Assembly (NCBI GenBank): GCA_018608565.1
Contig: JABAZT010000013.1
Location: 11,112-75,111, forward strand
Source of the DNA: Candidatus Altimarinota bacterium
GTDB taxonomy: Bacteria; Patescibacteriota; Gracilibacteria; UBA4473
Direction of reading: 5' to 3'
DNA: 64,000 bases
A program made the translations under genes and the position numbers. Shown piece after piece: positions 3,828 to 40,874 of the stretch (position 1 is its first letter; each line of letters starts with the position of its first letter). Below the pieces are notes generated by a model, which did not search any database, was not told the origin of the DNA, and saw nothing but the letters and a program-made list of their open reading frames with translations.

Positions 3828-4991
3828 TCAATAAGTGGTAAGTCTTAAACAAACCTTCATTCGTAATACTTTTCGTACACTGTCTTTTATCTGATTTTTA
3901 AATTCAGGATTGAGCTCCATTTCTTGTAGCACTTCATAGATGAGCTGGTTTTCATTGCTTGGAATGAGGACAATGTCATTTCCAGCTTTTAGTGCTTGTA
4001 GTCCAGGATTATCAAATGTATCTAACGCCCCCATATTAAGCGCATCAGTGATGGCAATTCCTTGAAATCCAAGTTCGCCTTTGAGTAAATTTGTCACAAT
4101 TTTTCGGCTGAGGGATGCCGGTAATCCTTTAGTGTCGTACAGTTGATTGTTCGTGATTGCAATATGTCCAATCATTACGAGCGGAATTTGATCCTCAATC
4201 GCAGTATTAAATGAATCGAGTTCATCTAGATCCCCATCTATCGTTACCAGGTTGATATGTGAATCACCAGAAACGAGTCCATGTCCTGGGAAGTGCTTGG
4301 CAGTCGGAGCAATATTAAATTCAATCATGGCTTGGTTAAATGCCTGGGCAAGTGGGGTAATTTGGTTCGCATTACTCCCAAACGAGCGATTACCAATAAT
4401 ATCAGTATTTACATTGGCGTCGTAGACCGGAGCAAAATTGATATGAATATTTTTAGACGAAAGATCTTGAGCAATTTGGTTCGCATACAGAGAAACGTCG
4501 TCAATGGTATTTTGTTGGTTAGTCGGAGGAATTTCACTGAGTTCAGGAATTCGGTAGGGGAGGAGGGATGGTTCTGCATCAATCGAGAATAAAAGTTTGG
4601 TAGGATTGTAGAGACTATTGAGTACCTGTAGTTCTTGAGTAAGAGTATGATCATATTGAGGATCTAGAATCATAAGTCCTCCGATTTCCTCCTTTTGAAT
4701 CATAGTTCGAATATTTTCAATATCAGTATTTCTGTCTATTGCAGGCATGAGAAGCTGAGCGACTTGTTGTTTAGGAGAAAGCTGAATAAATATTTCTTCA
4801 ACTTTTTCATTAAGTTCAATATCTTCAGGATTGCTGAAATCATCGAGTGAAAAAATGCGAAGAGAAGGGAGAGATTCTTCTTTGGTAAAGCTGGAAATCC
4901 AGTGATTGATTGGTTCTTGGAAGAGTTGGAAAGCGGTAGCTCCCAGTAAAATTCCGATCAAGAGTAAGAGGGTTCCAGTAATAGTTTTCAT
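3828..4991 (-). CDS. nagZ: Glycoside hydrolase family 3 (beta-N-acetylhexosaminidase, NagZ-like), membrane anchored
   Basis: Start reassigned to internal Met (MKTITGTLLLLIG) giving a signal anchor; GGLMILD, INFAPVYDANVNTDIIGNRSFG, AKHFPGHG, ITDALNMGA motifs. Confidence 0.88.
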   Translation of the reverse strand: MKTITGTLLLLIGILLGATAFQLFQEPINHWISSFTKEESLPSLRIFSLDDFSNPEDIELNEKVEEIFIQLSPKQQVAQLLMPAIDRNTDIENIRTMIQKEEIGGLMILDPQYDHTLTQELQVLNSLYNPTKLLFSIDAEPSLLPYRIPELSEIPPTNQQNTIDDVSLYANQIAQDLSSKNIHINFAPVYDANVNTDIIGNRSFGSNANQITPLAQAFNQAMIEFNIAPTAKHFPGHGLVSGDSHINLVTIDGDLDELDSFNTAIEDQIPLVMIGHIAITNNQLYDTKGLPASLSRKIVTNLLKGELGFQGIAITDALNMGALDTFDNPGLQALKAGNDIVLIPSNENQLIYEVLQEMELNPEFKNQIKDSVRKVLRMKVCLRLTTY

Positions 4992-9678: not shown

Positions 9679-9882
9679 TTAAGATTTCTTCTTAGTTTCT
9701 CTTTTGATTTTATAATTATGTCGATGGTTTGTTTTTTCTATATCCCAGGCAAAAATTGCTTTCTTCTCTTGTAGATTATTTCCAAGCATTTCTACGGTTG
9801 AACTTTTTGTCAGGATTGGAAGAATGGCGATTATAACTGCCAAGCTAGAGAGTGTTTTTCTTTTGTTTTTTTTCATTTTCAC
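9679..9882 (-). CDS. Small hypothetical with signal-peptide-like N-terminus
   Basis: 67-aa ORF, KMKKNKRKTLSSLAVIIAILPILT leader. Confidence 0.3.
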   Translation of the reverse strand: MKMKKNKRKTLSSLAVIIAILPILTKSSTVEMLGNNLQEKKAIFAWDIEKTNHRHNYKIKRETKKKS

Positions 9883-9967
9883 TTCTTATCATACATATTT
9901 TGCTCTAGTTTTAAAGTAGTACTTGTAGTTTGTTTTACCTTAACAATGAAAGCACTAGTATATATCT

Positions 9968-11335
9968 ATGAAAAAAAAATCAGTTTTCATATTTCGAAGA
10001 GATCTGCGGTGTGATGATAACATTGCAATGATAAAATCAATTGAGGTCTCTGATGAGGTGTTGCCAGTGTTTATTTTTGATCCAGTACAGATTGAAAAAA
10101 ATGAATATTTTGCGGCAAATGCTTTCAAATTTCTACTTGAAAGTCTGAAGGATTTGGATCAACAACTAAGGGGACGATTAAAAATATTTTATGGAAATCC
10201 GGTCGAAATTTTGTCTGAAATAAAAGAAGAATATGATTTTGATGCCGTGAGTTTTACTATTGATTATACGCCGTTTTCGCGAAAACGAGATAAGGCAATT
10301 GCAGACTGGTGTACGGGGCAGGGGGTAGATTGTCGGATGATAGAAGGGTTATTGCTCAACTCAGTCAATAAGACACTCAAGGCGGATGGAACCCCCTATA
10401 TGATCTACACGCCCTTTGCACGAAATGCCAAGCAGTTTTTGGTATCCCGACCGCAAAAGTTTGTTGATCAAAAGATTAGTTCAAAAGATTTTAGTTTTTC
10501 CGTAGAATTGAATGAAATTGAAGCAAAAGTTAAAACCACCTACGCTTTGTCTCCACCCTACAAGGGAGGAAGACAAGAGGCGTTGAGTCAGTTGGAAAAC
10601 TTTGTCGCTGATAGATTTGATGGTTATGGAAACACGCGAGATATTCCTCGGTTATCTTCCACGAGTGGATTGGCGCCGCATCTCAAGTTTGGGACTATCT
10701 CGCCTCGAGAGATCTATCATTCCCTCCCATCGACCGACAGCGTATTTGTAAATGAATTATATTGGCGTGACTTTTTTACCCAGATTGGGTGGTACTTTCC
10801 GCATGTGTTTGAGGGGGAGAAAAACTTTCGTCCTATGTATGACAAAATCCAGTGGGAAAATAATGAGCAAAAATTTGAAGCCTGGTGTGAAGGTAAGACG
10901 GGATATCCTATTGTCGATGCAGGAATGCGAGAGCTAAATACAACAGGATTCATGCATAATCGAGTTCGGATGATTACGGCCTCATTCCTCGTCAAGGATC
11001 TACACGTCGATTGGAAATGGGGAGAGCGATACTTCGCACAACACCTCGTCGACTACGATCCAGCCGTCAATAACGGAAACTGGCAGTGGGCCGCCTCTAC
11101 TGGCTGTGACGCACAGCCCTATTTCCGGATTTTCAATCCCTGGCGGCAGCTGGAGCGATTTGATCCTGAGTGTGAGTATATACAGCGATGGATTCCAGAG
11201 CTCAAAGATTCAAATGCAAAGGAGATTAGGAGTCTTGAAAAAGGCCAAGAAATTGAGGGGTATCCAGGATTGATAGTAGATCATAAGGTCGCTTCGGCTC
11301 GGACAAAAGAATTGTATCTGGAGGCGCGCGGCTGA
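9968..11335 (+). CDS. phrB: Deoxyribodipyrimidine photolyase
   Basis: VFIFRRDLRCDDNIAM, ELYWRDFFTQIGWYFPHVFEG, GYPIVDAGMRELNTTGFMHNRVRMITASFLVKDL, NNGNWQWAASTGCDAQPYFRIFNP. Confidence 0.96.
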   Translation: MKKKSVFIFRRDLRCDDNIAMIKSIEVSDEVLPVFIFDPVQIEKNEYFAANAFKFLLESLKDLDQQLRGRLKIFYGNPVEILSEIKEEYDFDAVSFTIDYTPFSRKRDKAIADWCTGQGVDCRMIEGLLLNSVNKTLKADGTPYMIYTPFARNAKQFLVSRPQKFVDQKISSKDFSFSVELNEIEAKVKTTYALSPPYKGGRQEALSQLENFVADRFDGYGNTRDIPRLSSTSGLAPHLKFGTISPREIYHSLPSTDSVFVNELYWRDFFTQIGWYFPHVFEGEKNFRPMYDKIQWENNEQKFEAWCEGKTGYPIVDAGMRELNTTGFMHNRVRMITASFLVKDLHVDWKWGERYFAQHLVDYDPAVNNGNWQWAASTGCDAQPYFRIFNPWRQLERFDPECEYIQRWIPELKDSNAKEIRSLEKGQEIEGYPGLIVDHKVASARTKELYLEARG

Positions 11336-16912: not shown

Positions 16913-16938
16913 AAAAAAATAGCCCTTTTGAGGGCTAT
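16913..16938 (-). terminator. Intrinsic terminator of rpsT
   Basis: AAAAAAATAGCCCT-TTTG-AGGGCTAT downstream of the minus-strand rpsT. Confidence 0.8.
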
Positions 16939-16965
16939 CTATTTATTAGTTTTCTTGTTCAGTTG

Positions 16966-17283
16966 TTATTCAGCTTTCTTTGTTTCTTTCTTCTCTGCTT
17001 TTTTAGTAGGAGCTTTTTTTGCTGGTTTAGCAGCCAATTTTTTAGAAAGGTTAGATTTCATTCGATCTGCTCGGTTAGCAGGAATAAGATTTTTCTTTAC
17101 CGCCATGTCGATAGATTTTTGAACTTGTGGGTAAAGTTTAGTAGCTTCGGCTGTTTTGCCTTCTTCTGTAAGTTTTAGAAATTCCTTGATCAATGACTTG
17201 TATGTGTTCTTTGTGGCAAGGTTTCGTGCAGTCCGTGTTTTTTGTTGTCGGACTCGTTTGATAGCTGATTTAATGATTGGCAT
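16966..17283 (-). CDS. rpsT: 30S ribosomal protein S20 with Lys/Ala-rich C-terminal tail
   Basis: MPIIKSAIKRVRQQKTRTARNLATKNTYKSLIKEF...KNLIPANRADRMKSNLSKKL; start trimmed to MPIIKS. Confidence 0.93.
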   Translation of the reverse strand: MPIIKSAIKRVRQQKTRTARNLATKNTYKSLIKEFLKLTEEGKTAEATKLYPQVQKSIDMAVKKNLIPANRADRMKSNLSKKLAAKPAKKAPTKKAEKKETKKAE

Positions 17284-17393: not shown

Positions 17394-17417
17394 TTATTTT
17401 ACTTAAAAGTAAAATAA
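17394..17417. promoter_or_regulatory. Perfect inverted repeat, candidate operator
   Basis: TTATTTTACTT-AA-AAGTAAAATAA, 11-bp arms, 4 nt upstream of a TTGACA. Confidence 0.55.
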
Positions 17418-17421
17418 ACTT

Positions 17422-17450
17422 TTGACATTAGTTTTTTTTGGAACAATATG
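17422..17450 (+). promoter_or_regulatory. Candidate sigma70-type promoter
   Basis: Consensus TTGACA, 17-nt spacer, weak -10 AATATG. Confidence 0.4.
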
Positions 17451-17455
17451 GGTGC

Positions 17456-17521
17456 ATGATTTTACTATCAAATAAGTTTCTAATCAATTACTTCCTCTGG
17501 CAGAGGAGGAGATCGAGATAA
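17456..17521 (+). CDS. Candidate 21-aa leader peptide MILLSNKFLINYFLWQRRRSR
   Basis: ATG...TAA short ORF between candidate promoter and terminator, upstream of the 17601 gene. Confidence 0.3.
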   Translation: MILLSNKFLINYFLWQRRRSR

Positions 17522-17550
17522 TATAATTAAATTTGTTACGATTTATATCT

Positions 17551-17585
17551 ATCACGGTCCTACCTAGTAAGACCGTGATTTTTTT
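17551..17585 (+). terminator. Intrinsic terminator/attenuator upstream of the 17601 ORF
   Basis: ATCACGGTC-CTACCTAGTAA-GACCGTGAT-TTTTTT, perfect 9-bp stem plus T run, ending about 15 nt before the ATG. Confidence 0.75.
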
Positions 17586-17600
17586 ATAATTTTTATTCCC

Positions 17601-18866
17601 ATGGTATTAGGAGCACCTGGCAACGGAGAATACGACATATTGGATCAACGAACTTCATCTAATCCAGAAATGGCAGAGGCTGAAATGTATAAGATCGAAC
17701 CACAGTCACAGCTTGGATTAGGGGTGTTGGTAGAAATATTTGGAGATGATGTAGAGGATTCGTTCTCGATAGACAAGACTCTGTTTGACCAAGAAATAAG
17801 TCTAGAAAAAATTGATGCAGCCATAGCTACAGTGGTAAATACAACGAGTCTTGGATATGTAGCACAAGCTATTTCTGAGAATGGGGATGATCCTATTAGT
17901 CAGCGATTAGCACAGATCGGTCGACGAGTTGCACTTTCATTGACCTTGATACGAGCCTATACAGATGAAGATGTGAGTGAATCTCAGATACATATACTAG
18001 CTCCAGGAGTGTTGGGGCAGTATACGGTTGATTCTCAAGAAGCCTCAGGAATATCGCTTGATGTAGAGGGGGTATTGAGTGAGGATTGGAGAGAGAAAAT
18101 TGTCCATGTGATGACCCATGAGGTGACGCATTTGCAGACCAACAGTATGATTAATGACATTGAGGATAAAGGGGATATCAAGATAAAAGGACAAATGATA
18201 ATGACCGCAATAGAGGTTATTGAGGCAATGACAGAGCATGCGGCATCACGAAAGACGGGAAAAAACATAGCGTACAAAGGTCCTCAGTCAGATTTAGAAG
18301 AGTTGGTAGGGGCAGAGAACTTAGACTGGATCAACAATGCCTTCCTTGCCAATGATGTAGAGGAATACACCGAACGGTTAATGGTTTGTATTGAGCCAGA
18401 CATCAATGAAATAGAAGAAGATAAAAAGTCAGAGTTGGTATCAGAAGATGCGTTGGTTGAAATGGGGCCGATGGTACGTCAGAATATTTTGATCGGAGAG
18501 AGTCCTCACGAAATATCACTTACCAATACCTGTACGGATGTAGTAACTGACTTGATACAGGAGTATCATGTATATCTTCCAAGTGGGGATATGAGAGAGT
18601 TAGAAGAGGCGGCACGAGAAATTGATTCGGGTGTCATAAAAGCCGCATTCCCTGGAATGAAAGATCCGATAGACAATATGATGGGATTAGACGAGGCCGA
18701 GGCAATTATAAAAAGAATAGGAAATAAAACGCATGGGATTAAATCAGCATTGGAGTCAGATCAGTCTAGAGAGACATTGCAGGATATGGAGAGAGGTCTT
18801 ACAGGGATAGATGAAAATGTTCAGGCGGGAGTGAATGCGGTTAGAAGGCACAAGGGGCACATATAA
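17601..18866 (+). CDS. Hypothetical protein with HExxH-type motif (possible zinc metallopeptidase)
   Basis: VMTHEVTHLQTNSM motif; otherwise unrecognised. Confidence 0.6.
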   Translation: MVLGAPGNGEYDILDQRTSSNPEMAEAEMYKIEPQSQLGLGVLVEIFGDDVEDSFSIDKTLFDQEISLEKIDAAIATVVNTTSLGYVAQAISENGDDPISQRLAQIGRRVALSLTLIRAYTDEDVSESQIHILAPGVLGQYTVDSQEASGISLDVEGVLSEDWREKIVHVMTHEVTHLQTNSMINDIEDKGDIKIKGQMIMTAIEVIEAMTEHAASRKTGKNIAYKGPQSDLEELVGAENLDWINNAFLANDVEEYTERLMVCIEPDINEIEEDKKSELVSEDALVEMGPMVRQNILIGESPHEISLTNTCTDVVTDLIQEYHVYLPSGDMRELEEAAREIDSGVIKAAFPGMKDPIDNMMGLDEAEAIIKRIGNKTHGIKSALESDQSRETLQDMERGLTGIDENVQAGVNAVRRHKGHI

Positions 18867-39825: not shown

Positions 39826-40677
39826 TCACTGTTTCTGTTGCACATACACCGCCAGAGACAAGATAAACGCAGCCAATACAATCCGTATCGTAAATCCTTC
39901 CCCCAAGAGAAAAAAGGCAAACACCGCAGACCAGATTGGTTGAAGGCCTCCGACAATCCCTACTGTAGTAGGAGAAAGAAGTTTCAAACAAGTGATATAG
40001 GCATAATGACCGATCACGGTTACTAGCGCTGCACCAAAAACCAATAACAGATTCCCATTCATCAGTATTGGAAACGAAGATGTGGCAAAAGGAAGAAAGC
40101 ATAATACCAAGACTCCAAATTTTACGAGATTGATACTCGAAGGAGAAAATCCATTGGTCACACTCCGCTTTGACAGACACATCTCTAGTCCAAAACAAAG
40201 TGCAGAAATCAATCCAAGACCAATACCAATCAAGTCAGAGTCAGTCAGTGTCGTGATGGGAGCCATGCTCCCAATACCAAGGATCACAAGTAAAGAGGCA
40301 AAAAGATCATTAGATCGTAATCGTTGAGAGGTGAAGACTGGCTGGAAAAACGCTGTAAAAACTGGATACGTAAAGATAGCAATCATCGCATACGCCACAG
40401 TGGTATGAGTAAGGGCCTCAAAAGAAATCCAAGCCCCCAGTCCATATACAATTCCACTCAAAAACAATATGAAACGTTTGGATGTTGGTGCCTCTCGGAT
40501 TTGTCGTAGATCACGACCACGAATAAAAACACCAAACAATACAATCGCCATCAGAAATCTCCAGAACAGATATCCAGGAGTCTCAAATCCATCCGTAAGA
40601 CGAAATAACACAGGTCCCATCGCGAGAATAGTTGTCGCAATATGAATGGTGATGAAGGCGGAGGTATTAGATTTCAT
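39826..40677 (-). CDS. EamA/DMT-superfamily transporter
   Basis: Ten hydrophobic segments, duplicated EamA topology, GIVGGLQPIWSAVFAFFLLGEGFT. Confidence 0.9.
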   Translation of the reverse strand: MKSNTSAFITIHIATTILAMGPVLFRLTDGFETPGYLFWRFLMAIVLFGVFIRGRDLRQIREAPTSKRFILFLSGIVYGLGAWISFEALTHTTVAYAMIAIFTYPVFTAFFQPVFTSQRLRSNDLFASLLVILGIGSMAPITTLTDSDLIGIGLGLISALCFGLEMCLSKRSVTNGFSPSSINLVKFGVLVLCFLPFATSSFPILMNGNLLLVFGAALVTVIGHYAYITCLKLLSPTTVGIVGGLQPIWSAVFAFFLLGEGFTIRIVLAAFILSLAVYVQQKQ

Positions 40678-40796: not shown

Positions 40797-40874
40797 CTAT
40801 TGACGAACACGAACCAAGCTCACACCACAAGGGTATGGAGACAGGATCCAGAGTACAAATTCAATACAATTCAT
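40797..40874 (-). CDS. Candidate leader peptide MNCIEFVLWILSPYPCGVSLVRVRQ
   Basis: 26-codon ORF with stop about 25 nt upstream of the terminator stem and a candidate promoter upstream. Confidence 0.5.
   Translation of the reverse strand: MNCIEFVLWILSPYPCGVSLVRVRQ

Follow-up and report, generated by a model that had tools for sequence, protein, structure and literature searches.

The classical trp, leu, his, thr and ilv attenuators of Proteobacteria are built from a short translated ORF, an alternative antiterminator and terminator, a U tract and the regulated gene. In Actinobacteria, leader peptides carrying runs of Trp, Leu or Cys codons have been described (Seliverstov et al. 2005, PMC1262725), and mycobacteria produce leaderless transcripts with small uORFs, some of which are Cys-rich (Shell et al. 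2015, PMC4633059). His leader peptides of Firmicutes attenuate aminoacyl-tRNA synthetase genes (Naville and Gautheret 2010, PMC2965389), and as of 2010 the known leader peptides came from Proteobacteria, Actinobacteria and Firmicutes (PMC2965389). Our search of the open-access literature, where absence is not a proof of novelty, turned up no paper on leader-peptide attenuation in Patescibacteria or the candidate phyla radiation.

The locus described here lies in a 64,000-nt stretch of DNA (the window) belonging to a genome of 1.66 Mb in 43 contigs. It shares the order of elements of the classical attenuators, and we consider it probable that at positions 17422-17601 transcription is attenuated by ribosomes translating a leaderless leader peptide. 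Three features set it apart from the classical systems: their leader ORF is led by a Shine-Dalgarno sequence, whereas the present one is predicted to be leaderless; it has no clear run of codons for a single amino acid; and the gene behind it encodes an orphan HExxH protein instead of a biosynthetic enzyme. The mycobacterial cys leaders have no conserved terminators, whereas the leaders of the present genome, from another lineage, are followed by strong intrinsic ones. The Firmicutes His leaders control HisS, while in this different lineage the synthetases concerned are ValS, ThrS and TyrS and the start is leaderless. No Rfam riboswitch, T-box or ribosomal-protein leader matched the leader at the gathering score. 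The L20_leader family (RF00558) gave a sub-threshold match at 17468-17590, terminator included (23.2 bits versus a gathering score of 58.7), and the downstream gene is not rpmI-rplT.

The elements listed in the earlier note were all found in place. A perfect 11-2-11 inverted repeat resembling an operator (TTATTTTACTT-AA-AAGTAAAATAA) occupies 17394-17417, followed on the plus strand by TTGACA (17422-17427), the -35 box of the leader promoter P1, and by its weak -10 box CAATAT (17444-17449) after a spacer of 16 nt. Next comes the leader-peptide ORF of 21 codons (17456-17521; MILLSNKFLINYFLWQRRRSR), within which lie the predicted sensor codons TAC TTC CTC TGG for Tyr, Phe, Leu and Trp (17489-17500) and the antiterminator strand (region 2) GATCGAGAT (17511-17519), which encodes the Arg-Ser-Arg end of the peptide. 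The intrinsic terminator (17551-17585; -14.5 kcal/mol) has a perfect 9-bp stem at 17551-17579 and a U tract reaching 17585; it is separated by 21 nt from the ATG at 17601 of the regulated gene (17601-18866), whose 421-aa near-orphan product contains the HEVTH (HExxH) motif of a putative metallopeptidase. Among 100 shuffles of the window, none contained an equally good match to the palindrome or to the terminator.

An unsupervised -35/-10 promoter model was trained on the same genome. In the regions 5' of genes, sampled from 443 kb, Shine-Dalgarno-like hexamers are nearly absent and -10-like hexamers peak 12-13 nt 5' of the ATG. The model converged on TTGAC[A/T]-16-TAnAAT, with 16 nt as the commonest spacer, and placed the -10 boxes in two modes, at -12 to -15 (leaderless) and at about -30 to -40. 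P1 (TTGACA-16-CAATAT) scores 10.5 bits, which is in the top quarter of the best scores per gene and equals the 95th percentile of shuffled sequences; nearly all of these bits come from the -35 box, the -10 box alone giving 0.3 bits. P1 is the sole good plus-strand promoter that the model finds in the intergenic region. From the first base of its -10 box to the uORF ATG is 12 nt, the distance typical of leaderless genes here. We therefore predict a leaderless uORF with its ATG at about +1, a relation missed by the earlier note.

The starting clue to a wider set of such leaders was a group of terminators at amino-acid genes: each stands 5' of a gene, and no other gene reads into it. A search through 1.625 Mb of the genome (98%) looked for units combining a promoter, an ATG placed 10-17 nt beyond the first base of its -10 box, an ORF of 6-45 aa and a terminator ahead of the next gene. 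Nine units were found, all with the ATG 12-17 nt after the -10 start. Six of them precede valS (leader MNTHSRLSPYKTPISDVVVVVE, run VVVVV), a DAHP synthase gene (MQNLFFYFWNFYFAPSRVRVRS, FFYFWNFYF), an aspartokinase gene (MKFVTMITTMTKITK, TMITTMTKIT), leuA (MFSKIIPLLLILLEEIQVA, LLLILL), tyrS (MQSNFHISYYSYTRSIPV, YYSY) and ilvB (MQKILLVLV, ILLVLV). A seventh, with three Cys codons (MNIVSQNCCCVLPKQRLR; L086 ~9870-10005, C30:50004), precedes a gene whose first 200 aa have no match in Pfam or NCBIfam. The eighth is found in the window on the minus strand, where a leaderless leader (40797-40874; MNCIEFVLWILSPYPCGVSLVRVRQ) and a terminator precede a gene for an EamA-type amino-acid transporter (39826-40677; TIGR00950), and the HEVTH leader is the ninth. 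The thrS leader (TTTTTTTTT / MKSTTTTTTTTTE) lacks a perfect terminator and is therefore outside the nine. In valS, leuA, tyrS, DAHP synthase, aspartokinase, ilvB and thrS (C12, C16, C19, C27, C36 and C41; loci L107, L091, L102, L166, L155 and L088) the codon runs are cognate to the enzyme encoded downstream, the gene identities of the targets having been confirmed with NCBIfam.

As a control, the same 684 upstream regions were dinucleotide-shuffled 20 times and each resulting set was scanned. The full unit of promoter, uORF, terminator and gene occurred nine times in the real sequences and not once in any of the shuffled sets. Leaderless uORFs overall numbered 16, versus 6.8 expected from the shuffled sets, and the seven without a terminator are close to chance level, which implies that very few of the nine full units are accidental. 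The HEVTH unit lies within the ranges of the leaderless family (12-17 nt from the -10 start to the ATG, ORF of 9-25 aa, terminator no more than ~120 nt beyond the ORF end). It looks like one of roughly ten switches of this kind in the genome, in each of which the codon run predicts what is sensed.

The leaders of thrS and valS are also conserved in relatives. Among 19 same-family genomes, the present one included, 12 have a leaderless ORF with at least four Thr in five codons upstream of thrS, and six have a leaderless poly-Val ORF upstream of valS. All 18 runs are cognate and none is non-cognate, and the -10 boxes were located 13-16 nt before the leader start. As the promoter model was derived from the present genome only, this conservation supports the leaderless layout largely independently. 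Outside the family but within the class, thrS was positive in 1/10 cases and valS in 0/11. The class includes families with TGA read-through in conserved genes, which together with the small genomes suggests a place in Gracilibacteria/Patescibacteria.

The existence of this whole class of leaders strongly supports one of the two readings offered by the earlier note, that of a second attenuated leader, and it does so beyond the evidence given there. The other reading, a regulated small RNA, has become less likely. It would make 17456-17586 a stand-alone gene for a small RNA or small peptide and would assign the HEVTH gene its own leaderless promoter at TATAAT (17585-17590). This perfect hexamer does lie 11 nt 5' of the ATG in a genome where leaderless promoters are common, and genes do begin soon after RNA-gene terminators here, e.g. 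28 nt after that of tRNA-Gly. However, the hexamer sits inside the T/A-rich tail of the terminator and has no -35 box (0.5 bits in total), and the genome-trained model finds no second recognisable plus-strand promoter for the HEVTH gene. Since no Rfam family matches and the identical layout is clearly attenuation elsewhere in the genome, we regard this explanation as unlikely.

For the attenuator itself, the leader was folded as a function of ribosome position. The segment GAUCGAGAU (17511-17519) can pair at 8/9 positions with the 5' arm of the terminator, AUCACGGUC (17551-17559), and is among the best-pairing 12-mers of the leader. At that place 46/3000 shuffles were as good, and in a further test 47/1000, so the pairing exceeds chance only modestly (p about 0.015-0.05). 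The segment stays free only when the A site of the ribosome is at the Trp codon (17498) or earlier, and is covered by a ribosome at the leader stop codon. A promoter lies 5' of the short ORF, a terminator stands before the gene and the antiterminator can be masked by a ribosome at the stop. An alternative antiterminator pairing was also found in nearly all of the leaders examined.

We infer the following sequence of events, together with the transcription of the leader and the direction of the response. RNA polymerase would start at about 17456, on or beside the uORF ATG, and a ribosome would initiate directly at the 5'-terminal AUG of the leader RNA. On reading to the UAA it would mask 17511-17519, the terminator at 17551-17585 would form, and the HEVTH gene would be off. 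With an earlier stall, in the Tyr-Phe-Leu-Trp stretch up to 17500, the segment 17511-17519 would be left free to pair with 17551-17559, blocking the terminator and allowing transcription of the gene. Ahead of the 3' arm the antiterminator reaches -9.4 kcal/mol, against -14.5 kcal/mol for the stronger terminator, so such a switch would have to be kinetic.

The leader peptide contains a mixed hydrophobic stretch (FLINYFLW) followed by an Arg-rich end, and no amino-acid run in it matches an obvious function of the near-orphan protein. Where the case is clear, some 11-21 nt separate the final control codon from the pairing strand downstream of it. The codons TAC TTC CTC TGG, 13-22 nt upstream of the antiterminator strand, fall in this range, whereas the Arg codons are 7, 4, 1 and -5 nt from its start. 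The Arg-rich end is therefore best taken as a by-product of encoding the pairing strand and is probably not the sensor. A stall at or before TGG (17498) is needed to free the strand, which makes the Tyr-Phe-Leu-Trp codons the likelier signal.

The Arg run had nevertheless been our first choice of sensor before its geometry demoted it. In such a variant of the attenuator, the C-terminal codons AGG AGG AGA TCG AGA would make the HEVTH gene answer arginine shortage, consistent with four Arg in the last five codons and with the runs of the valS and thrS leaders, which are likewise at the very end of the peptide. In those two leaders, however, the pairing strand lies beyond the stop codon, while in the HEVTH leader the Arg codons, unlike the control codons of the clear cases, overlap or touch the strand, and a ribosome stalled on them would hide what it should free. 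The earlier note had pointed to an Arg-containing C-terminus shared with the EamA leader. For the HEVTH leader such an end is explained by the antiterminator strand, which basic codons also form in the DAHP synthase (GTGAGAG) and Cys-run (AGGTTGAGG) leaders, and these codons need not be sensor codons. We consider an arginine sensor quite improbable.

Chance, with a short ORF of no significance beside a terminator that serves as insulator, would be in line with the poor -10 box of P1 and with a HEVTH gene that has no orthologues to show conservation, yet such coincidences are expected well below once in the genome, and we give this explanation very little weight. Arrest at +X+ motifs is known for the Erm and Msr leaders, and the motifs RRR and RSR of the HEVTH leader, RVR of the EamA and DAHP synthase leaders and RLR of the Cys-run leader could suggest a general sensor of translation stress (e.g. 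drug-induced arrest) in place of an amino-acid sensor, but this is scarcely credible, as the basic end of the DAHP synthase leader accompanies a cognate run that explains it, the basic ends encode the pairing strand, and no resistance gene lies downstream.

Under hydrophobic-codon attenuation, the EamA leader offers a possible parallel: its antiterminator strand is at leader nt 42-51, and a mixed hydrophobic stretch (IEFVLWIL) occupies the place matching FLINYFLW. A hydrophobic-amino-acid signal common to both leaders is plausible but unproven, since such codons are common in A+T-rich DNA. It is possible, and we suggest it only tentatively, that leaderless leader peptides carry a large share of amino-acid regulation in a small-genome lineage, apparently of the Patescibacteria type. 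Sensors of several amino acids (HEVTH and EamA) would then be among them and would turn on scavenging by a protease and a transporter whenever bulky hydrophobic amino acids are in short supply. In any case, the set of leaders is direct sequence evidence for ribosome-mediated attenuation, operating from leaderless ORFs, in uncultured small-genome bacteria whose Shine-Dalgarno signal is almost nil.

The orphan protease-like HEVTH gene thereby gains a testable physiological signal. Its 421-aa product has no match in Pfam, NCBIfam, PADLOC or PDB, and no relatives were found in genome and viral collections. Among 357 genomes of the class there is one weak relative, a 188-aa ORF with HEAWH (E 1.8e-4). 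A single-sequence AlphaFold model was too poor for use (pLDDT 33). Judging from its motif, the product is plausibly a zinc metallopeptidase. A gracilibacterium genome devoid of almost all amino-acid synthesis has been read as that of an organism living on external peptides (PMC6851277); the present genome, in contrast, carries leuA, ilvB and DAHP synthase genes. A protease induced when amino acids run low would suit organisms presumed to use external peptides.

The divergent neighbour of the leader, missed by the earlier note, is rpsT (S20; 16966-17283, minus strand). It has its own promoter, TTGACG-16-TAGATT (17340-17313, minus strand; 12.7 bits), hence the palindrome and leader stretch is not its core promoter. 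TTGAC-type boxes resembling the rpsT promoter are present 5' of rpsT in most of the family relatives inspected. Behind the gene, at 16917-16940, lies a strong terminator which by its sequence is bidirectional.

The palindrome core TTTTACTTNNAAGTAAAA recurs perfectly at one further place in the genome (C30:21145-21162). About 20 nt of flanking sequence are also alike at the two sites: AACCAAGAATCACAGACAGT on the minus strand of the window, towards rpsT, and AACATAGAGTCAGAGATAGT on C30. The C30 copy (L061 1492-1540) is located ahead of a 2028-aa ORF of unknown function. At this copy a promoter of 10.0 bits is predicted, with the -35 box inside the palindrome and the -10 box in the shared flank, and the equivalent minus-strand promoter of the window (7.9 bits) points to rpsT. 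On this basis, the palindrome is probably a protein-binding site. Its target may be a distal rpsT promoter, the HEVTH leader or the two together, and it may be a separate operator outside the attenuator unit. Conservation of the palindrome in relatives, proposed as a check in the earlier note, was not borne out: no perfect copy of the core occurs in 19 same-family genomes, and in the class the core is no commoner than a reversed control. A role as a conserved control element of rpsT was rejected, the palindrome being absent 5' of rpsT in the same-family relatives inspected.

Two further loci of the genome deserve mention. An Ala-rich leaderless ORF (MNYIFPAFAARRAARTIGA; L150 ~5476, C20:10476), without a perfect terminator, lies 5' of an unknown gene and is a possible alanine leader. 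At L049 ~4760-4940 (C11:4831), a terminator-like hairpin is placed between a promoter and a gene that by eye resembles nusA, an arrangement that might reflect autoregulation.
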